Shown: positions 486-17,244, counted from the stretch's first letter. The stretch: 57,082 nucleotides of DNA from Candidatus Woesearchaeota archaeon (GCA_018303625.1 JAGVXV010000003.1:1-57082); one strand, 5' to 3'. Notes: generated from the letters alone by a model not told the origin. Numbers and translations are program-made.

Positions 486-3110
486 TTACTTTGATATAAA
501 AATATTGTGCTTTTTAAAAGGATACAAAACCCCTGCGGCAACCGGGATGCCAATTATATTGTAAATAAACGCCCAGAACAGGTTTTGCTTTATTTTTTTC
601 AAGGTATAGCGGCTTAAGTCAATAGCTGTGACAACATCCCTTAGGTCATTTTTAATCAAGACTATGTCTCCAGTTTCAATTGCGATGTCAGTCCCGGAGC
701 CTATTGCAATGCCCAAATCTGCCTGGGCCAAAGCAGGCGCGTCATTTATTCCATCGCCTACCATTGCAACCTTTTTCTTTTCTGCCTGCAGTTTTTTGAT
801 TTCATTTGCCTTCTCCTGCGGCAGAACTTCTGCCAGAACCCTGTCAATTCCAAGCTGCCTTGCTATTGCATTCGCAGTCCTTTCATTATCGCCGGTTATC
901 ATTGCAATTTCCTTGCCCATTTTATGCAATTGCCTTACCGCTTCCTTTGAGTATTCCTTTAAAGTGTCAGCCACTGCAATCATGCCTATAATCTTTTTAT
1001 TTAAAGCTACAATCATTACTGTTTTTCCCTCTTCCTCCAAAATTCTTATTTTATTTTCTAAATTTTCAATATTAATTTTATTTTTCCCAATTAATTTTCT
1101 ATTTCCCAATAAAATCTTATTATTTTTATAAAATGCCTCAACGCCTTTTCCTGTTATCGAATTGAATTTTTTTGGCTCGTCAATTTTTATTCTCAGATCT
1201 TTTGCCTTGTTCACAATTGCTTCTGCCAGAGGATGCTCCGACCTTTTTTCTGCAATTGCCGCAAATTTCAAGACATCTTTTCCCTTTCCATTTTTAATTG
1301 AAATTATGTCAGTAACTTCTGGCTTTCCTTTTGTTAATGTTCCAGTCTTGTCAAAAATAATTGTCTGTATGCTTTTAGCCAGCTGCAGGCTTTCAGCATT
1401 CTTGAACAAAATGCCGTTTTTAGCTCCTAAGCCGGTGCCTACCATTATGGCTGTCGGTGTTGCAAGGCCTAATGCGCAGGGGCATGCTATAATCAGAACA
1501 GCAATAAACACTGTTAAGGCAAAAACAAAGCCAAAGCCCAGAGAATACCATGCTAAAAATGCAATTACGCCTATAACAGCAACAATCGGCACGAAATAAG
1601 CTGAAATCAAATCTGCTAATCTCTGTATGGGAGCCTTGCTTCCCTGGGCTTCCTCAACCATCCTTACAATATGCGCCAGAACAGTATCTTTTCCCACCTT
1701 TGTTGCCTTGAACTTGAAGCTTCCAGTTTTATTTATAGTTGCTCCTATAACCTTGTCACCTTTTGCTTTTTCAACAGGGATGCTTTCACCGGTAACCATG
1801 CTTTCATCAACAGAGCTGTGGCCGTCAACAATAACTCCGTCAACAGGTATTTTTTCGCCAGGCTTGACAATAATTATGTCATTAACCACGACATCATCAA
1901 CATTAATTTTTTGCTCCCTGCCGTTTCTTATAACAACAGCGGTTTTTGCCTGCAACCCAAGAAGCTTTCTTATTGCTTCGGATGTTTTTCCTTTTGCAAT
2001 CGCCTCAAGCAGTTTTCCCAATAAAATGAACATAATAAGCAGGCCTGCAATTTCATAATACAGGTCATGAGCGCCGTAACCCTTCCCAAAAAACCAGATC
2101 AGCATCGAAATCACAAGGCTATAGGCATATGCAGCCCCTGTGCCAAGCGCAATTAAAGTATCCATGTTTGCAGTCCTGTTTTTTATCAGGCTCCTGAAGC
2201 CCCTCAAGAAGAATTCATATCCTACAACCATTATTGGTGTGGTTAATAAAAATTGTATAATAACGAGATTTTGCCCGATGTATCTAGGAATCTCCAGTCC
2301 AATCTGAGGCGCCATTACAAAATAAAGCAGGGGCAATCCCAAAACCAGAGAAATAAAAAATTTCCACTTTAATGCCTTTATTTCCTGCTGCCTGGCTTCC
2401 TTTTCCCTGTCAATATCCTCTTTAAATTCTTCAGGCTCGTAGCCTGCGTCAACTATTATTTTTTTTATTTTTTCAATTGAGACTTTTTCAGGATCAAAGT
2501 CAATTATCGCCCTTTCAATCGCAAAGCTCACATCAATGTTTTTTATTCCATCCAGTTTTCTCAGGCTGCTTTCAACCACGCCAGCGCAGTGCTGGGATGA
2601 CATGCCGCGGACGCGCAAAGTAATCATTCCTGTTCTGCCGCCGGTTTTAATGACATTATAGCCGACATCCTCAACTGCCTTTTCCAAATCATTTTCATTC
2701 GCTTTTCCGGCATCAAACTCAACAGCGGCTTTTTCAGAGGCAAAGTTTACATTTGCATCTTTTACTCCAGCAATTCTTTTCAGGGATTTTTCAATTGTCA
2801 TTGCGCAAGAAGCGCAATGCATTCCCTTTATGGGCAAAATTATCTTTTTTGTTTGTCCGTCAGATTCTTTTTTTATTATTAAATTCGCTGGAAAATCCTT
2901 TGGATTTTCGGCGTCCCGAAAATCTTCGATTTTCGTGGATTTTATTGATTCGTCTTTTAATGGTTTTTTAGATATTGTTACCTTCCTTTGACTTAAAAAC
3001 TTATCATAGCAGTTTTTTGAGCAGAAATAGTATTCTTTCCCTTTTCTAACTAGCTTGAACTTTGCCTTTTTTTCATCAACTTCCATTCTGCAGACTGGGT
3101 CTCTTGCCAT
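486..3110 (-). CDS. copA: Copper-translocating P1B-type ATPase, CopA-like, C-terminally short
   Basis: This membrane pump exports Cu(I) using ATP. Domains in order: an N-terminal YHS/TRASH-like metal site (VCRM and YFCSKNC, residues about 6-37), a first HMA domain with GMHCASC (about 94-100), a second degenerate HMA keeping only one Cys (GMSSQHC, about 169-175), membrane segments, the ion site CPC (about residue 543), the phosphorylation motif DKTGT (about 586), an SEHP motif, and GDGINDAP (about 787). The protein ends soon after the helix carrying the YN motif. The family's last helix with the M-x2-S-S copper ligands is missing and replaced by a short basic tail. Only 25 bp separate its stop from the next gene. 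It may be a deletion product with impaired transport, or a shortened variant. Confidence 0.9.
2891..2935. repeat. Two adjacent perfect hairpins inside copA linker
   Basis: GAAAATCC-TTT-GGATTTTC (2891-2909) is followed by CGAAAATC-TTC-GATTTTCG (2917-2935). Both are perfect 8-bp stems with 3-nt loops, and they share the GAAAATC/GATTTTC arms. They lie in frame in the part of the ATPase gene that encodes the linker between the YHS and first HMA domains, a place that tolerates insertion. They look like a small palindromic element accepted in a coding linker, but chance low complexity in an AT-rich gene is possible. Confidence 0.55.
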
Positions 3111-6954: not shown

Positions 6955-7494
6955 TCATTTTTCCTGCTTTTTCTTGGGCAAGCTTCTCCATAGCTTTATA
7001 ATCCACAAGTAGACCAGGATAATGAGCCCAATGACTAAAACCAGGTATAGAAAATTAAAAAATCCCCAGTAGCCGTAGCCTCCCATCATTCCAGAGCCGT
7101 AATTTCCCATCATGCCGTATCCCATCATTCCACCTCCATAGTTTTTTCCATAACCCATCATTCCTTGCCCCATCATCATTCCCATCATCCCATACTGCGC
7201 CATTCCGCTTATGTCATTGCAATATATTCTTTTTGCCATTGCAATGTGCATTTGTTTCAAGCTTTCAGAGCCCTCGCCGCCCATCATCTCGTCCATAACC
7301 TCATGCGCTTCCCCGGGGTGCATCTGCTCCATATAATAATCGCCCATAGCCTCAAGCTGGCTTTCGCTTAATTCTGAGCATGGGGTCTTGGCGTCAATAA
7401 TCTGCTTTGCCTCTTCAAATTCCTCCATATCGGCAAAAACAATCCCGATACTAAATAAAGCAATCAAAACATACAAAAAATAATTTTTTTTCAA
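6955..7494 (-). CDS. Met/Gly-rich membrane protein, likely copper binding
   Basis: A signal-like helix (ends about IVFADMEEF) is followed by an acidic helical domain with several Met and His. A low-complexity stretch of repeated MMG, GMMGYG and GGGMMG units comes next, then one membrane helix and a basic tail. Clusters of Met are classic Cu(I) ligands in exported copper proteins. The best start is TTG at 7494, spaced after GAGGTGA. GTG at 7503 lies inside that ribosome site. It is divergent from the PadR-type regulator, and the shared intergenic region holds a perfect palindrome, so metal-dependent control by that regulator is likely. Confidence 0.75.
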   Translation of the reverse strand: MKKNYFLYVLIALFSIGIVFADMEEFEEAKQIIDAKTPCSELSESQLEAMGDYYMEQMHPGEAHEVMDEMMGGEGSESLKQMHIAMAKRIYCNDISGMAQYGMMGMMMGQGMMGYGKNYGGGMMGYGMMGNYGSGMMGGYGYWGFFNFLYLVLVIGLIILVYLWIIKLWRSLPKKKQEK

Positions 7495-7546
7495 ATTAAT
7501 CACCTCAAGTTAATATGTCCTACTTTGGTGCTTTGTAATACCATCT

Positions 7547-7567: not shown

Positions 7568-7584
7568 ATATCCGATTTGGATAT
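7568..7584. promoter_or_regulatory. Perfect palindromic operator ATATCC-N5-GGATAT
   Basis: ATATCC-GATTT-GGATAT is a perfect 6+6 inverted repeat. It lies between the TATA box of the Met-rich gene (minus) and that of the PadR-type gene (plus, 7601-7609), where a dimeric regulator could block or aid both. A further ATATCC half-site at 7606-7611 overlaps the plus-strand TATA box. It is most simply the binding site of the adjacent PadR-TRASH regulator. Confidence 0.6.
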
Positions 7585-7600
7585 GTCAAAAAAAGAAAGA

Positions 7601-7609
7601 TATTTATAT
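7601..7609 (+). promoter_or_regulatory. TATA element for PadR-type regulator
   Basis: TATTTATAT lies 22-30 bp before the ATG at 7631, the spacing expected for a leaderless archaeal transcript. Its right edge overlaps a half-site (ATATCC) of the nearby palindrome. Confidence 0.5.
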
Positions 7610-7630
7610 CCAATTGAATTAATTGTAGTT

Positions 7631-8053
7631 ATGCCAAAGGTGAAAGTAAACAATATGGTGAAATTCTGCACCTTGTACCTCCTGGCTTCCGGCCCGAAGC
7701 ATGGCTACGAATTAATGAAGGAGCTTGAGGACAAATTGGGAAGAAACATAAGCGCGAGCAATGTCTACCCTTTTCTGGATACATTGATAAAAAATAAGCT
7801 GATAAAAATTAAAAAAACTGGGAAAAGGGAGAAAAAAACCTATGCTCTGACAAATGAAGGCAGGAAATTTGCAAAAAACATGTTTAACAGGTTTGGAGAT
7901 TTGATTGACATTGCTATAGAGCCTAGATTAACTGCATGCGCTCACTGCAACTGCAAGGTATTTGAAGGTGGCCACACAGAGAAAGTCAAAGGAAAAGCAT
8001 TGAAATTCTGCTGCATGCACTGCGCAAGCTCCTATAAAAGGCACCATAATTAA
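7631..8053 (+). CDS. PadR-like regulator with C-terminal TRASH-like metal site
   Basis: The N-terminal part is a PadR winged helix (GPKHGYELMKELEDKLG, then SNVYPFLDTLIKNKLI and TYALTNEGRKFAK). The C-terminal 45 residues hold CAHCNC and KFCCMHCASSYKRHH, a TRASH-like arrangement known from archaeal copper sensors and close to the YHS site on the copper ATPase. The protein should therefore bind DNA in a metal-dependent way. The start at 7631 fits the TATA spacing. The longer TTG frame from 7577 would run through the palindrome and TATA box. It is transcribed with the zinc-ribbon ORF one base downstream. Confidence 0.8.
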   Translation: MPKVKVNNMVKFCTLYLLASGPKHGYELMKELEDKLGRNISASNVYPFLDTLIKNKLIKIKKTGKREKKTYALTNEGRKFAKNMFNRFGDLIDIAIEPRLTACAHCNCKVFEGGHTEKVKGKALKFCCMHCASSYKRHHN

Positions 8054-8698: not shown

Positions 8699-9202
8699 TT
8701 ACCATTCCTTGCAGCAATCAATGATTTTTTTCATTAAATCCGACAATTTTGAAAAATATGTTTTCTCCTTGCTGAAATTTTCATCAGCAATTAATTTTTC
8801 CGGCTTAATCATCTTGAGGTTTATTGCAAAAAACAATGAATAAAGGTTAAACGCCTGTGTAAAGAATTTGTTTGCTTCCTCTTTATCTCCTTTTGAAAAC
8901 TCTTTTGTCCCTACTTCAATAAGGCGCATGCTTGCTGCAAGGAGATGCTTGCTTATGCACCATTCCTCGCCTTCAGGGTTTTTTACAATTTTTTTCATCA
9001 ATTCTTTCCTTGTTTCCCTTACGGAATGAAGCATATTGAGGTATTTCTGGTCTTCTGTCTTTACGGCAGTAAAGAAAAAATGCTCCTCAAGGCTTATAAG
9101 GTTCATCAATGCAATGCTTAAATCCTCGTCCCTTGACAGATCAACATTGCCGTTCTTTATTTCCTGGATTTTCTCCATCCATTGCTTTACTTCATTTTCC
9201 AT
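8699..9202 (-). CDS. Helical cytoplasmic protein of unknown function
   Basis: A 167-residue, all-helical, charged protein without signal or membrane segments. It contains SLEEHFFFTAVKTEDQKYL, then EEWCISKHLLAASMRLIEVG and, at the end, KKIIDCCKEW. The H/E-rich helix and terminal CC-x-E-W could bind a metal, but no family is recognised. It starts one base after the stop of the HCPLC membrane protein gene and is probably last in the long minus-strand operon. Confidence 0.6.
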   Translation of the reverse strand: MENEVKQWMEKIQEIKNGNVDLSRDEDLSIALMNLISLEEHFFFTAVKTEDQKYLNMLHSVRETRKELMKKIVKNPEGEEWCISKHLLAASMRLIEVGTKEFSKGDKEEANKFFTQAFNLYSLFFAINLKMIKPEKLIADENFSKEKTYFSKLSDLMKKIIDCCKEW

Positions 9203-9203
9203 T

Positions 9204-9728
9204 TTAGATTATAACCTCTGCTATCAGGCTTGAAATAATCAATAATAAGAATGTAAGCAAAATTCCCTGGAAAGGAACAAATTTTCCATGCCTTAAGTGC
9301 GTTATTTTTTCACTTAGCCATGGAGTTAGTGATGTTATAATACCTCCGAAAATGCTGCCCAGCAAAAACAAATTAATCAAATAAGTTCTATTGAGCAATG
9401 TTCCATACTCCCCGAAAAGAAAAATTCCCAAGGGATACTGGCTTTCCACCATTGGCATTAAAGGGATTACTGTTGCAAAAAATGAAAACAGTATTATTGC
9501 AGATTTTTGCAACGGAATAAATTTTCTTTTTATCAATTTTGAGGAATACCATCCAATGGAAACTGCAAATGCGCCTATAAAAATCCCAATTATTGCTTTA
9601 TTTAACCCGAAATATGATGCAGTTCCTGCTGCCGCTGCAGCGCCTATTGTGCATAATGGGCAATGCGCATATGCCGTTTTCAGCAATAAGGGAAACAGAG
9701 CAAAAGAAAGCAGTTTTTTCTTTCCCAT
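9204..9728 (-). CDS. Membrane protein with AHCPLCT motif
   Basis: A signal-like helix ends in AYAHCPLCTIGAAAAAG, followed by four or five further membrane helices. The HCPLC motif lies just outside the first helix, a place suited to a redox-active or metal-binding Cys pair. The fusion protein at 16006-17244 has a comparable GAICPVCQSIG motif within its membrane part. I recall this as an uncharacterised membrane family and cannot name it. Its neighbours DUF411 and the MVGGC proteins suggest a role in outside thiol or metal chemistry. Confidence 0.7.
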   Translation of the reverse strand: MGKKKLLSFALFPLLLKTAYAHCPLCTIGAAAAAGTASYFGLNKAIIGIFIGAFAVSIGWYSSKLIKRKFIPLQKSAIILFSFFATVIPLMPMVESQYPLGIFLFGEYGTLLNRTYLINLFLLGSIFGGIITSLTPWLSEKITHLRHGKFVPFQGILLTFLLLIISSLIAEVII

Positions 9729-9747: not shown

Positions 9748-10224
9748 CTATATCCTCATAAATTCAGATGTGGAGCCGTCTTTGTTTATTGCGTAAACAA
9801 TAAAAGGCCCCTGTTTTGACCCGGGCATTCCCGGGCTTCCTGATGGCATGCCGGGCAATGCAATCCCCTTGATATCGGGCTTTTCAAGCATTAATTTTTC
9901 AACAGCCTCAATGGGAACATGGCCTTCTACAAAATAATCCCCAATAACTGTTGTATGGCAGCTTCGCATTGAATACGGAATTCCGTATTTTTCTTTTACT
10001 GATTCCATATTTGTGGTTTTTGTATCAGCATTAAACCCTTTTTTCACCATATAGCTTACATAAACATCGCAGCATCCGCATGAGGAATCTTTGAGTATCG
10101 TGACAGAATCTGCTGCAACAGAGTTTCCCGTTATTGCATTTGAATTTCCTTTTGAGCAGCCTGCTGTTATCAAGGCTAAACTTAGGATTAAAATTATAAA
10201 AAAGTATAATCTTTTACCCGCCAT
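9748..10224 (-). CDS. DUF411 metal-binding protein, membrane-tethered
   Basis: An N-terminal hydrophobic segment with a Cys (LITAGC, lipobox-like) leads to a DUF411 domain. This has VTILKDSSCGCCDVY with the C-x-C-C motif, the RSCHT loop, and YFVEGHVPIEAVEKL. The family is linked to copper and silver resistance in many bacteria. A Pro/Gly/Met-rich tail follows. The start at 10224 comes directly after the stop of the upstream MVGGC gene and is spaced from GGGGGA in that gene's last codons. The upstream ATG at 10254 would overlap that gene. Confidence 0.85.
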   Translation of the reverse strand: MAGKRLYFFIILILSLALITAGCSKGNSNAITGNSVAADSVTILKDSSCGCCDVYVSYMVKKGFNADTKTTNMESVKEKYGIPYSMRSCHTTVIGDYFVEGHVPIEAVEKLMLEKPDIKGIALPGMPSGSPGMPGSKQGPFIVYAINKDGSTSEFMRI

Positions 10225-10225
10225 A

Positions 10226-10423
10226 TCAGCATCCCCCAACCATCTGAGGAACATTTGCGGCAGGCTGGTTGTAGGTATTTATGGCACTGGGGTTAGATTG
10301 CGCGACAACAGCGCTGCTATCCCCACTAAAGCTTTTCTTTATATTGTTAATCTGGGCGCTTTGCACAAAGCTGATTATCACCAGAATTGCCAATAAAAAA
10401 ACTATCAAAATTTTCATGTTCAT
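10226..10423 (-). CDS. Small membrane-anchored protein ending MVGGC (copy 1)
   Basis: From ATG 10423 it reads a short hydrophobic anchor (MNMKILIVFLLAILV), then SFVQSAQINNIKK, a Ser/Ala/Asn/Gln-rich flexible stretch and the end VPQMVGGC. The only Cys is the last residue. It belongs to a set of four proteins in this window with the same plan. The start lies one base after the upstream stop, with GGAGG formed by the last codons of the upstream gene. No known family. A tethered arm presenting a terminal thiol outside the cell is inference. Confidence 0.7.
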   Translation of the reverse strand: MNMKILIVFLLAILVIISFVQSAQINNIKKSFSGDSSAVVAQSNPSAINTYNQPAANVPQMVGGC

Positions 10424-10424
10424 T

Positions 10425-10679
10425 TTAACAGCCTCCAACCATAGATGCGCTGGCTGAACCGCCTTTACCAAACCTTGCTGGGATTATGCCATGCATATCA
10501 TAGTTCATTATTTCATTCTCGGTCCAACCCGCGGTATCAATCTGGTCTGTTCCTGTAGCGGCTACTGCGCCAGTCGTTGACAGCCTATTTTTTAGCCCAT
10601 TCAATTGGAAAGCCTGCACAACAGACACTATAAGCACAGCACCAAGAAAGATCACTATAACCCTGTTTTTTATGTTCAT
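10425..10679 (-). CDS. Small membrane-anchored protein ending MVGGC (copy 2)
   Basis: It has a single N-terminal hydrophobic helix (MNIKNRVIVIFLGAVLIV), the motif SVVQAFQLNGLKNRL, an acidic and Gly/Ser-rich middle part with NYDMHGIIPARFGKG, and the terminus ASMVGGC. As in copy 1 the only Cys is the final residue. ATG 10679 follows the upstream stop by one base and uses GGAGG in that gene's Gly-Gly codons as its ribosome site. No named family. The middle (D-M-H-G-I-I-P-A-R-F) differs from the other copies, so each may have its own partner. Confidence 0.7.
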   Translation of the reverse strand: MNIKNRVIVIFLGAVLIVSVVQAFQLNGLKNRLSTTGAVAATGTDQIDTAGWTENEIMNYDMHGIIPARFGKGGSASASMVGGC

Positions 10680-10680
10680 T

Positions 10681-11355
10681 TTAACAGCCTCCCACCATTC
10701 CTCCTGCAGATAGACCCTGCTCAATTCCCCTGTATTTGTTTGATGCTAAATTAATATAATTTAACTCAACTCCCTGCTGGCTTAGAATCTGGGCTTTTGC
10801 CTGTATCTGCCCGGGAAAAAACAAGGTTTTCCATTTTCCAAGCTCCTCTAAAATTTCATCATCGCTAAACTCATTCGGATGGTTTCTTATAATGTATTTT
10901 GCAACGCCCCTCATTGCATAGCTATGGGCGCAACCGCATGCCGCCTGTCCATTCGAAAAAATTATTGACTCTGCGCCGCAGCAGTACTCGCAGCTTATTT
11001 TTGACGCTATGCCAATATACCTCTTCATCTGATCTTCGTTTAATTGTGTTGCATCATCAAGATAGCCAAGCCTTCTTATTGTTGTGTCAGCTTTTTGCTG
11101 GTCAATCGGGCTTATGTCATCGTAGCTTACTTTTAATTCCTGGCCGTAAATTTTCGGAATTCCAGTTGGAACTACACTTGCTCCGAGTGTTTGTACATTA
11201 TTGGTTGCTGCCCCGTTATTAGTAGCAACTGCAAAGCCAGTTGGGCTTATTTTTAATACAGCATTTATTTGCATCTGGTTGTAAGCTAAAATAACCGTCA
11301 ATACAGCCATAAGCAAAATGATTGCCCTGTCAAGATTTTTTTCCTTCATCTTCAT
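10681..11355 (-). CDS. Anchored protein with C-Y-C-C-G/C-G-C-A-H-S domain and MVGGC end
   Basis: One N-terminal membrane helix is followed by a linker (NQMQINAVLKISPTGFAV), a folded domain, and the terminus SAGGMVGGC. The domain has SCEYCCGAESIIF, ACGCAHSYAMRGVAKYII and a C-terminal EILEELGKWKTLFFPG. The same domain ends the larger protein at 16006-17244, where the residues in FTCDYCCG and RCGCAHSLAAQGMAKWF match. Five clustered Cys plus His suggest a metal or disulfide-exchange site, vaguely like the PCYCG family. I cannot assign it. It heads a run of genes with one-base spacing. Confidence 0.7.
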   Translation of the reverse strand: MKMKEKNLDRAIILLMAVLTVILAYNQMQINAVLKISPTGFAVATNNGAATNNVQTLGASVVPTGIPKIYGQELKVSYDDISPIDQQKADTTIRRLGYLDDATQLNEDQMKRYIGIASKISCEYCCGAESIIFSNGQAACGCAHSYAMRGVAKYIIRNHPNEFSDDEILEELGKWKTLFFPGQIQAKAQILSQQGVELNYINLASNKYRGIEQGLSAGGMVGGC

Positions 11356-11480
11356 TTTTTATTTTTATAATTCAGTTGGGATATATAATTAACTTCTAAA
11401 ACTATTAATAAAATAAGAGTTTTGGTATTTAATCAAGCCTTTTTATTGTTTACAATTGTTCAGAATTCAAAAATAAGCAT

Positions 11481-12023
11481 TTATAGTGCTTTTTTCATGA
11501 AAATATTGTTTATTTTCCCTTTTTTAACTTTTGCGATAAGCCCTTTTTTCTCAAGCTGCGATAACACTATTGATAATTTGGTTTTGGACAAATCAACCCT
11601 GTACATCAATGTTGACTGTGAAATGCCGTCCTGCTCCTTAACTGCCTGTATGACTTTCTTTTCATCTTCGTCCAGCCCTGTTAATAGAATTTTGAACCTT
11701 TCTTCTTTTGATTCCTCTGTTTTTGCAGCCTTAATGTTTTTGAGGATATTTTCTTGAACGTTTTCAAAAGACTTGGCTGTTCTGGAAAATAATACCAAAT
11801 AAGCCCCAAGGCTTAATGTAAGCGCTATTGCCGCAATACCAATGCCGAAAGGCAGAAAGCTCCTCTCATGGATGCATTTTCCGCTCTCCAGCACGCAATT
11901 GCCGCTGCCCAGATTCATCAACTGGTCGTTCATCTGGTTAAGCTGGATTTTCAGAATAGATAAGATCACAATAAATATTATGCCTATAAAAACAACTAGA
12001 TAGCCAATTTTTTTATTGTCCAT
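11481..12023 (-). CDS. Membrane-anchored winged-helix regulator
   Basis: From ATG 12023 it starts MDNKKIGYLVVF, matching the paralogue at 1-460. Two membrane helices flank an outside loop with two Cys (GNCVLESGKC), followed by a helical linker and a MarR-like winged helix (EQDGISQSTLMYRVDLSKTK, SQLEKKGLIAKVKKG). The outside Cys loop suggests a sensor of redox state or metal that passes a signal to the DNA-binding part. It lies between two blocks of metal genes and probably controls one of them. An upstream in-frame ATG at 12041 is less likely. Confidence 0.75.
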   Translation of the reverse strand: MDNKKIGYLVVFIGIIFIVILSILKIQLNQMNDQLMNLGSGNCVLESGKCIHERSFLPFGIGIAAIALTLSLGAYLVLFSRTAKSFENVQENILKNIKAAKTEESKEERFKILLTGLDEDEKKVIQAVKEQDGISQSTLMYRVDLSKTKLSIVLSQLEKKGLIAKVKKGKINNIFMKKAL

Positions 12024-12065
12024 AGTTTTAAGGTAATTCAATCCTTTATAAAAATCTTATTGATT

Positions 12066-12521
12066 TCATTTATTTTTTGATTTATTATCTAAACTTAAAA
12101 TGCCTGCCCCCGAAAATACCACTGAAAGGGCCATTAAGCTTAATCCAAAGTCTCTTATTGCAATGTCGTTGTAGCCAAGCGAAAATGCAATTGAAAGCAA
12201 ATGCAAAGCCGCAATAAAGGCAGTTAATCTTGTATAAAACCCCATCAGCAATAACAATCCAAGAAGAGTATCAGCAATCCCGTTAAATGTTAAAACCACG
12301 TGCACTGAAGGCTTTGGAATGTTATGCATAAGCTGCAATGGATGCTCGTGCATCATTTGCTGCGGATGCTCATACATCCATTGCGGAATGTACCCTAAAA
12401 AAGATTCCGGGTTAATGAGCTGGCTGATTCCAAACCACAATAAGACCAAAGCAAGGCTCATCCTTACTATAAATATTGAATAATCCTTGTTTTTGATAAA
12501 AAAATCCTTTATTTTTTCCAT
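12066..12521 (-). CDS. DoxX-family membrane protein with His/Met-rich loop
   Basis: Four helices with the DoxX pattern (VRMSLALVLLWFGISQL at the start; FNGIADTLLGLLLLMGFYTR, then a long ALHLLSIAF helix). Between helices one and two is an insertion with YEHPQQMMHEHPLQLMH, a run of His and Met that would bind copper outside the membrane. DoxX proteins are tied to quinone and thiosulfate oxidation or to thiol-stress complexes. The loop appears as a specific adaptation here. Its neighbour upstream is the CuA-type cupredoxin. Confidence 0.8.
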   Translation of the reverse strand: MEKIKDFFIKNKDYSIFIVRMSLALVLLWFGISQLINPESFLGYIPQWMYEHPQQMMHEHPLQLMHNIPKPSVHVVLTFNGIADTLLGLLLLMGFYTRLTAFIAALHLLSIAFSLGYNDIAIRDFGLSLMALSVVFSGAGILSLDNKSKNK

Positions 12522-12568
12522 GGGCTAAAATCAATTTTAATGTTGTTTATACTTATATGCTTTTGAGG

Positions 12569-12961
12569 TTATTTTACTGTTAAATCCCCTTTCATGGAGC
12601 TGTGGCCTTCCCCGCAGTAAACAGTGCATAAAAACGGGAAAGTTCCCTGCTTGCTTGCGGTAAACTCTATTGTTACCTGCTTTCCTGCCGGCACCTGCTC
12701 GTTGATGTTGAAATCCGGCAGTGCAAAGCCATGAGCAACATCCTGGCTTTTTATTATCAACCTTACCACTTCACCTTTGTTTACGATTATGGTATTTGGC
12801 TCGAAATTGAATCTGGATGCTTTGATATTAATAACTCTTACATTATCATCAAATTTTCCAGAGCCGTCTAATATTTCCGGGCTTTTTGTGCAGCCAAAAA
12901 TAAATATAATAGCTGCTAAAAATGTCGCTAAAATTATCTTTCTCATAATGAATTTAATCAT
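12569..12961 (-). CDS. CuA-type cupredoxin lipoprotein
   Basis: The signal ends with the lipobox IFGC. A cupredoxin domain follows with the strand FNFEPNTIIVNKGEVVRL, a His ligand in VAHGFALP, and the loop CTVYCGEGHSSM. The last gives the C-x3-C-x3-H-x2-M ligand set of the binuclear CuA site of cytochrome oxidase subunit II and nitrous oxide reductase. The Glu found between the Cys in most oxidases is Val. No oxidase subunit I is present, so it may store or carry copper or electrons. The start overlaps the preceding stop (ATGA). Confidence 0.85.
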   Translation of the reverse strand: MIKFIMRKIILATFLAAIIFIFGCTKSPEILDGSGKFDDNVRVINIKASRFNFEPNTIIVNKGEVVRLIIKSQDVAHGFALPDFNINEQVPAGKQVTIEFTASKQGTFPFLCTVYCGEGHSSMKGDLTVK

Positions 12962-13386
12962 TTTATTTTTATTTTATTTTTTTGAAATTTTCCTTTGATA
13001 TAAAAGAGCAGGCTCAAAACAAACAAGGTTCCTCCAATTATCCAAAATATTGCCAAATAGCTTTGCAATGCTTTGAAAGGAACACCTGCTATTATGATTC
13101 CGGAATTCAGCATTAATAAATTTTTTGAAATGCACTTCTTTTTAAAATAAAAAATTAATGTAATTGCAAATAGCAAAACAGCAGCTGTCCAGAATGGGAT
13201 TGCAACTTTCTGCAAAAAAAGCAAAGGCATTCCAACTATTGTAATGCCTATAAATGAAAGCAATGCAATTATGCCTAGGCAGACATTATGGCATACCTGA
13301 TAGCCTCCCAGGAAGCTTAATGCCCCTGACAGGGAGCTTGAGAAAGATGTTGCCTTCTCTACTATAAACTTTTTTGCCTTATCCAT
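12958..13386 (-). CDS. Four-helix membrane protein with conserved Cys, second paralogue
   Basis: It mirrors 5276-5698: GGYQVCHNVCLGIIALLSFIG, GITIVGMPLLFLQKVAIPF, KKKCISKNLLMLNSG and a final pair of helices. Strong retention of C-H-N-x-C and of KKCISKN between the copies points to functional residues. It starts one base after the HxH protein gene upstream and overlaps the cupredoxin start downstream, so it belongs to the same operon. A role in moving copper or other soft metal across the membrane is inference. Confidence 0.7.
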   Translation of the reverse strand: MDKAKKFIVEKATSFSSSLSGALSFLGGYQVCHNVCLGIIALLSFIGITIVGMPLLFLQKVAIPFWTAAVLLFAITLIFYFKKKCISKNLLMLNSGIIIAGVPFKALQSYLAIFWIIGGTLFVLSLLFYIKGKFQKNKIKIK

Positions 13387-13387
13387 T

Positions 13388-14146
13388 CTAATGATTTTTT
13401 GAAAAATCAGTTATTGAGCTAATTTGCTGCTTTATTTCTTTCTCGCCCTCATCCCCATAACTTACCAAAATCTTGTCATTATCATTAAATACATATTCTT
13501 CATATTCAGGATTTTCAATTCCGTTAACAAAAAATTTCAAATTATTATTCCTGTCATTGCAATAACTTTCTTTATTATCTAAAACAAAACATTCTTTGTT
13601 AAATTTTATTCCAATGCTCTTGAAGAATACCCATAATGGGACTCCTGTTGCATGCATATGGATGACATCGCCTTCTTTTTCCGGGAATGAGGCTCCTTTA
13701 TCAAAGTGAATAAAGCTGCTGGTTATCCGGCTGTCCATTTTTGACATATCCATAGCCAGCGGCCCTAACACATTTTCATCCAATACATTCCCCAATATAT
13801 ATATTTTCAAGTCGGCATGAAGGTGCTGCGAGCCTAAAATGCCAATAGTTGACTTTGAATCCATGTTGCATTGAAGCTGCCCAGAACTAATGCACATATC
13901 TACTGGCATTCCGCAGCTGTCGCATTGCCCGTCATTATTTTTGTCCATAAACTCCTTTGCTAATTGGGTGTCAAATGGCGTGAGCGACATTGCACTCATT
14001 CTCGATCCCATGCCCGATATTGTATTTGAATTTGGATTAATTTGCGATGGAAAAAACAATGATTTTGAAACATAAAATAGTGAAAAAAGAGCTACAATAA
14101 TAGTTAATACTATAAAACCTGTTAATATTTTCTCTGCATTAGCCAT
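13388..14146 (-). CDS. HxH-motif exported protein with Cys-rich metal motif
   Basis: An N-terminal membrane anchor is followed by MDKNNDGQCDSCGMPVDMC, a motif that looks like a calcium-like D-x-N-x-D-G loop merged with a CxxC-G-M metal site. The body then shares with 3372-3878 the motifs HLHADLKIYILGN and VIHMHATGVPLWVFF. It ends DKILVSYGDEGEKEI, also as in the paralogue. The His pairs and Cys/Met motif make soft-metal binding likely. It is longer than its paralogue by the N-terminal metal motif. No named family recognised. Confidence 0.7.
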   Translation of the reverse strand: MANAEKILTGFIVLTIIVALFSLFYVSKSLFFPSQINPNSNTISGMGSRMSAMSLTPFDTQLAKEFMDKNNDGQCDSCGMPVDMCISSGQLQCNMDSKSTIGILGSQHLHADLKIYILGNVLDENVLGPLAMDMSKMDSRITSSFIHFDKGASFPEKEGDVIHMHATGVPLWVFFKSIGIKFNKECFVLDNKESYCNDRNNNLKFFVNGIENPEYEEYVFNDNDKILVSYGDEGEKEIKQQISSITDFSKNH

Positions 14147-14149
14147 TTT

Positions 14150-14623
14150 TCAAGTTGTATCAATATTCTCTCCGTATGGATGTATCAATTTCCATCCTGG
14201 AATTACATCCCCTTGCCTGTATTTTAATGTGAATGTTCCGTCAAATTTGCTTTTTGCCCCGTTTGCAAAGGAAAACTCTACGCTATAATCAACCGCCGCT
14301 GTATTGCCATCATTTGAACTTTCTTTTATTGACAATATTCTTGCATTATCAATGCCCTGCGATTCTGCATATTCTTTGAATGCCCCCAAATCCTTTGCTG
14401 TAGGCTCTATTTTCTTAAAGCCGTCTGAAATTGCAGCGTACATATCCGGATAATTCTTATTGCTCCATGCAGTAAAATACTGCTCAACTACCTTTTCAGG
14501 CGATGGTGTTTCATATTCTGGGATATTGTTTTTTTTAGTAAGCGTTATGTAAGCAATGCCTGCAATCAAAAACGCAATAAAAACCAAGATTGTTGCCAGA
14601 TTTTTCCCCTTCATCCCAACCAT
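14150..14623 (-). CDS. Membrane-anchored NTF2-like protein
   Basis: One N-terminal helix is followed by a domain of about 115 residues with EKVVEQYFTAWSNKNYPDMY, a middle strand VDYSVEFSFANGAKSKFDG and an end GWKLIHPYGENI. This is the layout of NTF2-like/DUF4878-type exported domains, which often bind small ligands or stabilise partners. The gene starts after the triple thioredoxin gene on the same strand. A second in-frame ATG lies three codons later. No Cys in the domain, so it is more likely a structural partner than a thiol carrier. Confidence 0.65.
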   Translation of the reverse strand: MVGMKGKNLATILVFIAFLIAGIAYITLTKKNNIPEYETPSPEKVVEQYFTAWSNKNYPDMYAAISDGFKKIEPTAKDLGAFKEYAESQGIDNARILSIKESSNDGNTAAVDYSVEFSFANGAKSKFDGTFTLKYRQGDVIPGWKLIHPYGENIDTT

Positions 14624-14638
14624 TTTAATGATATAAGT

Positions 14639-15757
14639 TTATTGCACTTGTACAATTTCCCCTGATGCCAAGTCTTTGTAAGTTCCCAAACTTTCAGGCT
14701 TTCTCATGACATACCAGCCATCACCCTCAATAGTGCCAACGCTTTGCCATACCTGGACAAAAGCAGGATACTCCGAAACCTCTGGCGACAATAGAAGCGC
14801 AGGAACTTTTTCTATATTGTACTTCGCAATTAATTCCCTGACCTCATTTGAAGAAACATCATAAGCCTCTTCTTCATTTACAAAAACCCCGAACCTTGGA
14901 AGTATCTGCTTGTTTATACTGACATCATAGCATTCCCCGCATGAGCTGTCATCAAGCAGGATTATTTTTACCAAGCCAATAACTTTTCCCTGTTTTAAAT
15001 CCCTATAAGGCGCTGATGTGGCATGCAACGCATAAAAGCCATTTTTCTCTTCAGCAAGCTGCTGAATTTGCTCTTTAACATCATAATAATTAACTTCGTT
15101 TGATATTAATATTGCTGGAATTCTGCTGATGTCAAACCTGTTAATAAGCCCTATGCCTTCACTGGAAAAATACTCATAGGTCTTTTCTTCTGTTATTGCA
15201 ACACCTGACTGTTTCAAGGCATCTGCAACCTGGCTTAACGGTATGCATTCCTCACACAAAGAATCCACAACATTTATTACCGAGACTTTTCCTACAACTC
15301 TAGACAAAGTAACATCATAGTATGGGGGCTTTAGGCTCGTAAAAACCACATTTTTTTCATCTGGAAAATCTCCGATATTGCCAAAAAAAGACTTTAGCTG
15401 CTCTGTCTTGTTTGTTTCCCCTGAAATTATTAATGTCGGAATTTTTTCAATATTATACTTATCTATAATTTCTTTTGCATAATTCTCATTTAAGTAAATA
15501 GTTCTTTCTTCAGTCACATTGACATTCTGCTTTTTTATGCTTTCCAATGCAGTTTCTATGTCAAAGCATTCTTCGCAGTCAGAAAGCAATATTTTTGTCA
15601 CTTCTAATTTGGCGGGCCTTAGAAACTCTTTAGCTATTTCTTTTGCCTCATTAACCTTTTCTGCCCTGCCTTGAATAATGTAAATATTCATTAAGGATAT
15701 TGCTCCTATTAAGGCAAGCATCACATATAGCAATACCTCTACTCTGTTTTTTTTCAA
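14639..15757 (-). CDS. Exported protein with three thioredoxin-like domains
   Basis: One membrane anchor is followed by three tandem thioredoxin-like repeats of about 105 residues. Each has its own CxxC (LSDCEEC near residue 62, SLCEEC near 167, SSCGEC near 273) and, about 50 residues later, a cis-Pro strand (EKIPTLIIS, SRIPAILIS, EKVPALLLS). All three keep both Cys, so three active redox sites would face outside. The TTG at 15757 follows GGGAG at good spacing. GTG at 15766 lies within that signal. It sits between an MVGGC gene and an NTF2-like gene and is a candidate to oxidise or reduce their thiols. Confidence 0.8.
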   Translation of the reverse strand: MKKNRVEVLLYVMLALIGAISLMNIYIIQGRAEKVNEAKEIAKEFLRPAKLEVTKILLSDCEECFDIETALESIKKQNVNVTEERTIYLNENYAKEIIDKYNIEKIPTLIISGETNKTEQLKSFFGNIGDFPDEKNVVFTSLKPPYYDVTLSRVVGKVSVINVVDSLCEECIPLSQVADALKQSGVAITEEKTYEYFSSEGIGLINRFDISRIPAILISNEVNYYDVKEQIQQLAEEKNGFYALHATSAPYRDLKQGKVIGLVKIILLDDSSCGECYDVSINKQILPRFGVFVNEEEAYDVSSNEVRELIAKYNIEKVPALLLSPEVSEYPAFVQVWQSVGTIEGDGWYVMRKPESLGTYKDLASGEIVQVQ

Positions 15758-15777
15758 TCCAACCACTCCCTAATTCA

Positions 15778-15987
15778 TTAACAGCCGCCAACCATTGAAG
15801 GCAGATTTTCCAAACTGGCGGGAGTTGAAACTCCAGAACTTACACCAGTCGCGCTTGGAGCTGCGCTGCCTCCAGATGTTACAACAACCGGATTGTTGCT
15901 TAAAGACACCAACTGCACTGCCTGAACAACTGTTGTCAGGACTAAAACAGTTATCAGCACAATCAGCAAAATTTCTTTTCTTTCCAT
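15778..15987 (-). CDS. Small membrane-anchored protein ending MVGGC (copy 3)
   Basis: It reads MERKEILLIVLITVLVLTTV, then VQAVQLVSLSNNP, a Ser/Gly/Ala/Thr-rich linker and the end LPSMVGGC. The plan is identical to the small proteins at 10226 and 10425, and the sole Cys is again terminal. The codons for the Gly-Gly pair (GGC GGC) do not form a ribosome site here, unlike the other copies, so the motif is kept for the protein. The gene itself has a good GAGGTG ribosome site. It lies between the Cys-domain fusion and the triple thioredoxin. Confidence 0.75.
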   Translation of the reverse strand: MERKEILLIVLITVLVLTTVVQAVQLVSLSNNPVVVTSGGSAAPSATGVSSGVSTPASLENLPSMVGGC

Positions 15988-16005
15988 TTTTTCACCTCAA
16001 AAATT

Positions 16006-17244
16006 TTAAACTTGAGCCTCTAATAGGATTCTTTTGACAGTAGGACCTGGATACCACAAGGCATACCATCTTGCCATCTCCCCATAAATTTCCTCATCAG
16101 AGTAGCTGCTGCCGTAATTTTTAATGAACCACTTTGCCATGCCTTGTGCTGCCAGTGAATGCGCGCAGCCGCATCTTGTTATTATTGTCGGGTTTTGCGG
16201 GCTTCCGCAGCAGTAATCGCATGTAAATGAATTCACAATTCTGCCCCATCTCTGCTCTTCCTGCGGGCTTAATTGTATTGCTCTGCCTTTTGCCCATAGG
16301 TTTTGCGCTGTTATAGGATCGTCAAAGCTTACTCCTGCTTGCTGCCCATACCAAGGAGTTCCGCTTGGCACAACATTATTCACTAAATCCTGGGCAGCAT
16401 TCCCTGTCAAGGGCTTCATTTGAAGCTCGCTTATGGTTGGAATGGGCTTTACCTTTGATCTGTAGCCTTGTATTGCAGGCTGCTCGCCCTGAGCCAAAGG
16501 CATTGGCTTCAAGGTTATTTTCGGGCCATATTCAAAACTTCCCAAATTGGCTGTGCCTCCAGATACTGAAGATAAAGCAGTTGTCGCAAATGCCTTGGGT
16601 ATCATTAAATTGTTAAAAACAAGCAAAAGTGTCAGAACAACAAGGCTGCCAAAAGCTATATTGTTTTTGTATAAGAACATTTCCTTATTTTTATCATGCC
16701 TCTCAACCTTTACCTCGCAGCTTTTGCATTTTTTGCTGTGAATACTATCGGCTTTGAAATAAACAGCCATTCCAAGCAATCCAATAGAAGCAACTTTTAA
16801 AAAGCCAAGATACGGCGTTAAAAAGGCAGTAGGAATGTTAAGCAGTGTGCTTCCAAAAGCAACTATTCCTATGCTTTGGCATACTGGGCATATTGCCCCT
16901 ACAATTCCTGCAAATCCACCGCCAACCCCGCCTATTGAAGATGCTGAAGCAAGCTTACTCCTTCTCTCATACAAGAACAACGATAAAAAAATGGATGTAA
17001 GGGCAGAAACAGCAATGACAAACAGGTAATCAAAAAATCCAATGCCGGATAGCCTGTTAATTCCAAAGTCTATAATAGGTATTTTCCAGAATCCATACAG
17101 GAAACTGTAAACTATCAAAAAAGCAGTTATAGATATCAGTAGAATTTTCTTGCTTTCTTCCCTTTTTAGAATTTCAATACTGGTTGAGAGAATATTTTCC
17201 TTTTTCTCTTCTTTCATGGCTTTGTGTTTTCCTTCTGATTCCAT
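16006..17244 (-). CDS. Polytopic membrane protein fused to C-Y-C-C-G/C-G-C-A-H-S domain
   Basis: The first 220 residues hold about six membrane helices with GGVGGGFAGIVGAICPVCQSIG, a Cys pair in a helix, and a cytoplasmic or outside loop KKCKSCEVKVERHDKN. A Pro-rich linker (LKPMPLAQGEQP) leads to the domain FTCDYCCG...RCGCAHSLAAQGMAKWF...MARWYALWYPG, shared with 10681-11355. Thus the Cys domain occurs once fused to a transporter-like unit and once on a single-helix anchor with an MVGGC tail. No known family covers the fusion. It begins the operon 17244 to about 12066, suggesting a metal or thiol export complex. Confidence 0.7.
   Translation of the reverse strand: MESEGKHKAMKEEKKENILSTSIEILKREESKKILLISITAFLIVYSFLYGFWKIPIIDFGINRLSGIGFFDYLFVIAVSALTSIFLSLFLYERRSKLASASSIGGVGGGFAGIVGAICPVCQSIGIVAFGSTLLNIPTAFLTPYLGFLKVASIGLLGMAVYFKADSIHSKKCKSCEVKVERHDKNKEMFLYKNNIAFGSLVVLTLLLVFNNLMIPKAFATTALSSVSGGTANLGSFEYGPKITLKPMPLAQGEQPAIQGYRSKVKPIPTISELQMKPLTGNAAQDLVNNVVPSGTPWYGQQAGVSFDDPITAQNLWAKGRAIQLSPQEEQRWGRIVNSFTCDYCCGSPQNPTIITRCGCAHSLAAQGMAKWFIKNYGSSYSDEEIYGEMARWYALWYPGPTVKRILLEAQV

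Follow-up and report, generated by a model that had tools for sequence, protein, structure and literature searches.

A 57,082-nucleotide stretch of DNA from Candidatus Woesearchaeota archaeon (hereafter the window), belonging to a genome of 1.34 Mb, carries two adjacent strings of genes on its minus strand in which four membrane-anchored proteins end in exactly the same five residues, MVGGC, and are accompanied by a cysteine-rich domain designated CYCC. In the order of transcription, string 1 comprises a winged helix-turn-helix regulator, CYCC1, the small proteins sm2 and sm1, a DUF411 protein, a membrane protein designated HCPLC, and a helical protein ending in ...IIDCCKEW; string 2 comprises CYCC2, the small protein sm4, a triple thioredoxin, several small genes, and a CuA cupredoxin. 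CYCC1 (10681 to 11355; 224 amino acids) consists of an N-terminal transmembrane segment, the CYCC domain, a short linker, and MVGGC. The other three tailed proteins each begin with an N-terminal transmembrane anchor: sm1 (10226 to 10423; 65 amino acids) continues with a V-Q-S-A-Q-I box and a flexible outside part, sm2 (10425 to 10679; 84 amino acids) carries a Met/His box, W-T-E-N-E-I-M-N-Y-D-M-H-G, and sm4 (15778 to 15987; 69 amino acids) carries a V-Q-A-V-Q-L box and closes with ...LPSMVGGC. Gaps of 1 nucleotide separate the successive genes from CYCC1 through sm2 and sm1 to DUF411; the better starts of sm1 and sm2 are ATG codons, with which their apparent overlaps vanish. CYCC2 (16006 to 17244; 412 amino acids) lacks the tail and fuses a membrane domain bearing a CPVC motif to a CYCC domain (domain match 3.3e-71) that is about 39-42% identical to that of CYCC1.

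The four MVGGC termini lie where the original prediction, drawn from the sequence of the window, had placed them; the codons for the last five residues differ among the copies, and the terminal cysteine is the only cysteine in sm1, sm2, and sm4, both as it had stated. Two of its descriptions hold in part. The V-Q-x-x-Q-[LI] box that it assigned to all four proteins is found in the three small ones and does not occur literally in the 224-residue protein, which reads N-Q-M-Q-I, and the shared C-Y-C-C-G domain that it recognized in CYCC2 is indeed there, within a tail-less membrane-domain fusion. Within the 1.34-Mb genome, [x]VGGC followed by a stop occurs only at these 4 sites, all at this locus (0 in the reversed control), and in the window 4 reading frames end in GGC where 0.59 are expected, a count reached by 0 of 100 shuffles. 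The enrichment in other genomes that had been anticipated is pronounced: across 110 related loci (1.1 Mb, 7929 open reading frames, with some genomes counted twice), 216 open reading frames end in GGC, and 216/216 do so as exactly MVGGC. GGC is the commonest C-terminal tripeptide in these loci by a factor of six, the next occurring 33 times, and none of 6652 open reading frames ends one position away from MVGGC. The shuffles, the reversed control, and the tripeptide counts together reject a chance origin of the tail.

The genes for 225 distinct tailed proteins draw on every codon for Val and for Gly, on either Cys codon, and on each of the three stops, and residue -6, which varies, marks the end of conservation. 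The tail is under selection as protein, as the original prediction had held, and its enrichment is far beyond chance. We weighed the alternative that the tail is a nucleotide effect, in which GGAGG within the Gly-Gly codons serves as the Shine-Dalgarno site of the next gene. GGAGG is present in 85/127 tails with an ATG within 10 nucleotides (67%) versus 38/98 others (39%; p 3e-5), but 60 copies lack both GGAGG and a nearby start, all synonymous codons occur, and Met, Val, and Cys are conserved as well. Ribosome binding thus accounts for codon choice and not for the peptide; as the main cause of the tail it is refuted, and we give it a negligible probability.

The terminal cysteine is never lost in the tailed proteins seen here and is the sole cysteine after the transmembrane segment in 111/111 small proteins, whose outside part has a median length of 48 residues; the tail is preceded by a linker rich in Ser, Gly, Ala, and Pro. 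The small proteins are likely to be oriented with the N-terminus inside and the C-terminus outside, since Lys and Arg are more frequent before the transmembrane segment than after it in 85 of 136 and less frequent in 25. Some tailed proteins carry Met/His boxes, WTENEKMNYEMHGTIPAR in 36 of 189 distinct sequences and YEEMMARMHPDQ in 5. Two variant tails are known: QVGSC, on a small protein that follows a tail-less CYCC1 in two related genomes (L047/L014 and L060/L018), and IVGEC, on a lone CYCC protein in another genome (G075, L163:4796-5401) without a small partner nearby. Both keep V-G-x-Cys, so that the constraint on Met and on the second Gly is very strong without being absolute.

The tail and the CYCC domain travel together. 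Among 288 genomes of the same order, a profile search finds the domain in 93 and a search for ATG-GTN-GGN-GGN-TGY-stop finds the tail in 92; 91 genomes have both, 2 the domain only, 1 the tail only, and 194 neither, which amounts to co-occurrence in 91/94 genomes with either (Fisher p about 7e-72, kinship between genomes being ignored). Tails are few per genome and, among the matches listed, nearly all stand beside a CYCC domain, making the domain plus MVGGC-stop a near-perfect genomic marker for the pathway. A scan of contigs found 166 loci, of which the 80 kept for neighborhood counts derive from Woesearchaeota, Pacearchaeota, Aenigmatarchaeota, Micrarchaeota, Diapherotrites, 'Nanoarchaeota', or records labeled simply as archaeon, together with one Bacteroidetes record. 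The 31 of these genomes that were searched whole hold 1-5 tails each, mostly close together, and in the Micrarchaeota the tail is found in 8 of 146 genomes (none in the reversed control). A search of plasmids gave no match to the system. In the Bacteroidetes record (L072), the CYCC/MVGGC gene lies at the edge of a short contig from a groundwater bin; the domain is present in 0/98 other genomes of that phylum, and the bacterial occurrence was set aside as a likely case of mis-binning. Because unrelated proteins in several archaeal phyla share one five-residue tag, specific recognition at the molecular level is implied; the databases searched do not describe it, and its probable setting is the envelope copper and redox biology of organisms known almost solely from metagenomes.

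Such recognition could in principle be that of a dedicated enzyme, with MVGGC acting as a C-terminal processing signal for lipidation, thioester cross-linking, or proteolytic sorting. A short, near-exact motif ending sharply at -6 resembles known C-terminal signals, the cell biology of DPANN archaea is poorly known, and a modifying enzyme could be encoded elsewhere in the genome. However, these proteins already possess an N-terminal anchor, the targets are few per genome and nearly all at this locus, and unbiased clustering of neighbors reveals no transferase, sortase, or peptidase that recurs nearby, so that the lipid or cross-link signal entertained in the original prediction gains no support from a shared neighboring enzyme. 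Archaeosortase substrates of the PGF-CTERM type, moreover, continue beyond their motif with a transmembrane segment and basic residues, whereas here the stop follows MVGGC directly and the transmembrane segment is N-terminal. We therefore disfavor a processing signal as rather improbable.

The loci fall into three arrangements. Type A, represented by string 1, contains the regulator, CYCC1 with or without its tail, one or two small MVGGC proteins, DUF411, HCPLC, and a protein with a terminal Cys-Cys tail; DUF411 is present in 44/80 loci, and HCPLC in 61/80. Homologs of sm2 occur in 61 loci. Type B combines a tailed CYCC protein, 32-40% identical to CYCC1 of the window, with a small MVGGC protein and a triple thioredoxin (16/18 loci), in most cases a DsbD/CcdA-like protein (13-14/18), and at times a CuA cupredoxin. 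Type C, represented by string 2, unites a tail-less CYCC domain fused to the CPVC membrane domain with a small MVGGC protein and a triple thioredoxin. The anticipated linkage of the tail to CYCC, DUF411, triple thioredoxins, and HCPLC is thus seen across loci and genomes, and the original prediction withstands the two refuting conditions that it had set, lack of enrichment and lack of linkage. Where CYCC1 is tail-less, it ends directly behind SNKYRG(I/A)E, with the tail borne by the small gene that follows. DUF411 is found in 0/8 loci with a tail-less CYCC1, versus 44/72 others; as a general cause of the CYCC1 tail it fails, type B retaining the tail usually without an adjacent DUF411 gene.

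The corresponding three CYCC subfamilies (A, B, and C) are 22-40% identical, and what is constant among them is a CYCC domain with a tail next to it, whether in cis or in trans. Because this is the common denominator, the CYCC domain is the likeliest and most economical candidate for the receptor of the tail. The motifs of CYCC1, C122-E-Y-C125-C126-G ... C140-G-C142-A-H144-S ... W175 ... SN-YR, recur among the invariants of 59 sequences, which are C122-E-Y-C125-C126-G, C140, C142, H144-S, W175, F180-P181, S205-N206-x-Y-R, and the tail. The domain has no sequence match in the PDB, NCBIfam, or Pfam, and PCYCGC (PF13798) is not among the matches listed at E up to 1 for the 59 CYCC proteins, a listing that covers 25 of 26 families. 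An AlphaFold2 (AF2) model of CYCC1 (mean pLDDT 88.5) yields 0 fold matches at E<=0.001 in the PDB and BFVD, and the predicted fold is apparently novel. The tail is modeled with pLDDT falling from 82 to 74, where the N-terminal linker (39-53) stays below 50, which hints that the tail may lie against the CYCC domain. None of the libraries searched describes the CYCC domain, the tail, or their pairing, and nothing relevant to MVGGC was found in the open-access literature, in line with the earlier statement that no described system is known to have this layout.

Docking might also be the main function of the tail. In that case MVGGC would be mainly an assembly tag that fits a pocket of the CYCC domain, with the cysteine held in a lasting disulfide or serving as a structural ligand of a metal within a heteromeric complex. 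The occurrence of the same tail on cis and trans partners would suit such a tag, as would the almost unvarying sequence of the pentapeptide, a constraint that a simple arm for metal would not impose, and the presence in most genomes of both a CYCC tail and at least one small-protein tail. Yet some loci (L057) have a single tail only, and a purely structural tag would have no need of the conserved partners, redox and copper proteins whose cysteines are exposed. We consider this explanation unlikely, if still deserving of attention.

The partners themselves point to copper and thiol chemistry. The DUF411 protein (9748 to 10224; Pfam PF04214, 2.4e-24), with its C-G-C-C, C-H-T, and GM...GM motifs, is a homolog of CopG (PDB 6wis and 6wje, E 5.9e-26) that retains the CxCC and CHT motifs. 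CopG holds a tetranuclear copper cluster bridged by Cys, as stated in PMC8456105 with reference to Hausrath 2020. The CuA-type cupredoxin (12569 to 12961) has the pattern C-x3-C-x3-H-x2-M and matches PDB 2cua_A at 2.7e-14 and 2lln at 2.3e-14. The thioredoxin (14639 to 15766) has an N-terminal transmembrane segment and, by eye, three CxxC motifs (CEEC, CEEC, and CGEC), with a match to Pfam Thioredoxin_3 over the cut-off (7.5e-9). HCPLC (9204 to 9728) is a membrane protein in which the A, H, C, P, and C of A-H-C-P-x-C, right after the signal or anchor helix, are invariant in 62/62 sequences; its AF2 model (pLDDT 90.8) has no fold match in the PDB, and no known family matches it. As a guess, cleavage by signal peptidase after the Ala would give a mature N-terminus of His-Cys-Pro.

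In tests of co-occurrence that ignore kinship between genomes, DUF411 accompanies CYCC in 20/35 genomes versus 3/83 (p 2e-10), HCPLC in 21/35 versus 0/83 (p 2e-14) and hence only in CYCC-positive genomes, the CuA cupredoxin in 19/35 versus 10/83 (p 3e-6), and DsbD_TM in 27/35 versus 33/83 (p 2e-4). In one type B locus, a triple thioredoxin is naturally fused to a CuA domain (L183:6525-7994), a link between copper and the thiol branch. In 118 genomes, COX1 was not found above the cut-off, which sets the cupredoxin apart from any standard oxidase; a terminal oxidase was accordingly rejected as its client. The copper ATPase, near universal in the order, was discarded as a discriminating marker.

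Because the CYCC domain (five Cys and a His), CopG, CuA, and thioredoxins surround a tethered thiol, the economical reading is a swinging arm for Cu(I) or electrons. With a probability of about 0.5, we propose that the genes of the locus specify a Cu(I)/thiol relay peculiar to DPANN archaea, tethered to the membrane and operating outside the cytoplasm, which is built from a swinging-arm terminal thiol and the CYCC domain. Its core would be a CYCC protein and at least one MVGGC tail, either on CYCC itself or on neighboring small proteins with a single transmembrane segment. The tail would stay on the mature protein as a flexible arm, with the thiol of the terminal cysteine as the working group, and would dock on a Cys/His site of the CYCC domain. 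The arm may then move Cu(I), or electrons or a disulfide for Cu(I) handling, to CopG/DUF411, HCPLC, and the CuA cupredoxin, while the triple thioredoxin, joined in type B genomes by a DsbD-type membrane protein, would keep the thiols reduced. We infer the N-in, C-out orientation, docking on CYCC, copper as the cargo, and the direction of flow; metal binding or disulfide formation by the terminal cysteine, and the choice of receiving partner, are likewise putative. The outside copper or disulfide relay of the original prediction is therefore the best-supported reading, given the match of DUF411 to solved structures of CopG and the presence nearby of a CuA cupredoxin, a triple thioredoxin, and DsbD-type proteins, although its cargo and partner are candidates.

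Several observations weigh against this proposal. The partner associations may owe something to kinship, which the tests disregard; with COX1 absent above the cut-off, no client suggests itself for the CuA protein; and the copper ATPase associates with CYCC weakly (p 0.004). In type B loci, genes for DUF411 and HCPLC are usually missing from the immediate neighborhood, and the overall look is one of redox chemistry more than of copper handling. The genome of the window itself has no DsbD_TM match, leaving its electron supply unexplained. Finally, QVGSC and IVGEC lack Met, which is thus not an obligatory metal ligand.

Known systems resemble the proposed Cu(I)/thiol relay in parts. CopG/DUF411 represents one component only, the CYCC and MVGGC proteins being unrelated to CopG. 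The CcdA/DsbD-thioredoxin pathways likewise place DsbD_TM and membrane-anchored thioredoxins beside cysteine proteins, as in type B and in the thioredoxin-CuA fusion, but the thioredoxin here is triple, and terminal-Cys tails and CYCC fall outside the known pathways. In mercuric reductase (MerA), a C-terminal cysteine hands a soft metal to a partner site; this offers a lead, with the difference that MerA is a soluble flavoenzyme with a Cys pair and the proteins here bear a single tethered Cys. The closest precedent in design is the C-terminal GGCGG arm of SoxY (PMC6067878), which, in SoxYZ, is an extracytoplasmic, flexible Gly-Gly-Cys arm that carries cargo between partners. This likeness raises the alternative that the MVGGC tail is a sulfur carrier bearing a persulfide, thiosulfate, or sulfane group, to which rhodanese-like genes in 15 loci lend some weight. 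However, Pfam scans of the window proteins and of 59 CYCC proteins gave no match to the SoxY family, the GGCGG end is absent, the tail stopping at Cys in 225/225 proteins, and MVGGC is membrane-anchored and paired with CYCC amid copper and thioredoxin neighbors that dominate over rhodanese, a minority partner. We regard sulfur carriage as improbable, and SoxY is best taken as a precedent for the design, not as a relative.

The regulator at the head of string 1 (11481 to 12041), a membrane-anchored protein with two transmembrane segments, an outside C...C, and a cytosolic winged helix-turn-helix domain (DUF7343, PF24034, 5.2e-12), is of a type present in 66/80 loci. At the other end of the string, in the position after HCPLC in the same operon, lies a second shared C-terminal cysteine tail, ...[DE]CC[KR]xW, carried in the window by the helical soluble protein (8699 to 9202), which ends in KKIIDCCKEW. 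This tail occurs on two unrelated proteins, a soluble helical one (...VDCCKEW) and a membrane protein with several transmembrane segments (...VECCKKW), which are mutually exclusive (38 and 19 loci, 0 with both); further examples include L051:10083-10547, L069:9954-10400, and other loci. It is conceivable, if doubtful, that cytosolic Cys-Cys tails, membrane-embedded HCPLC, and outside MVGGC tails docking on CYCC act together in DPANN archaea as a conduit across the membrane, with shared cysteine tails on both sides, through which Cu(I) or thiol electrons pass.

Elsewhere in the window, an open reading frame at 486-3110 encodes a copper ATPase with YHS and heavy-metal domains, covering profile positions 2-515 of 542; it ends in an unrelated-looking ...KKHNIFISK, so that its C-terminal end looks truncated, and immediately past it comes another membrane regulator of the winged-helix kind. 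Adjoining the system are two genes (6955-7503 and 7577-8053), one for a membrane protein rich in Met and Gly and one for a regulator of the PadR type that contains a TRASH-like CxxC...CC domain; this combination is typical of copper loci.

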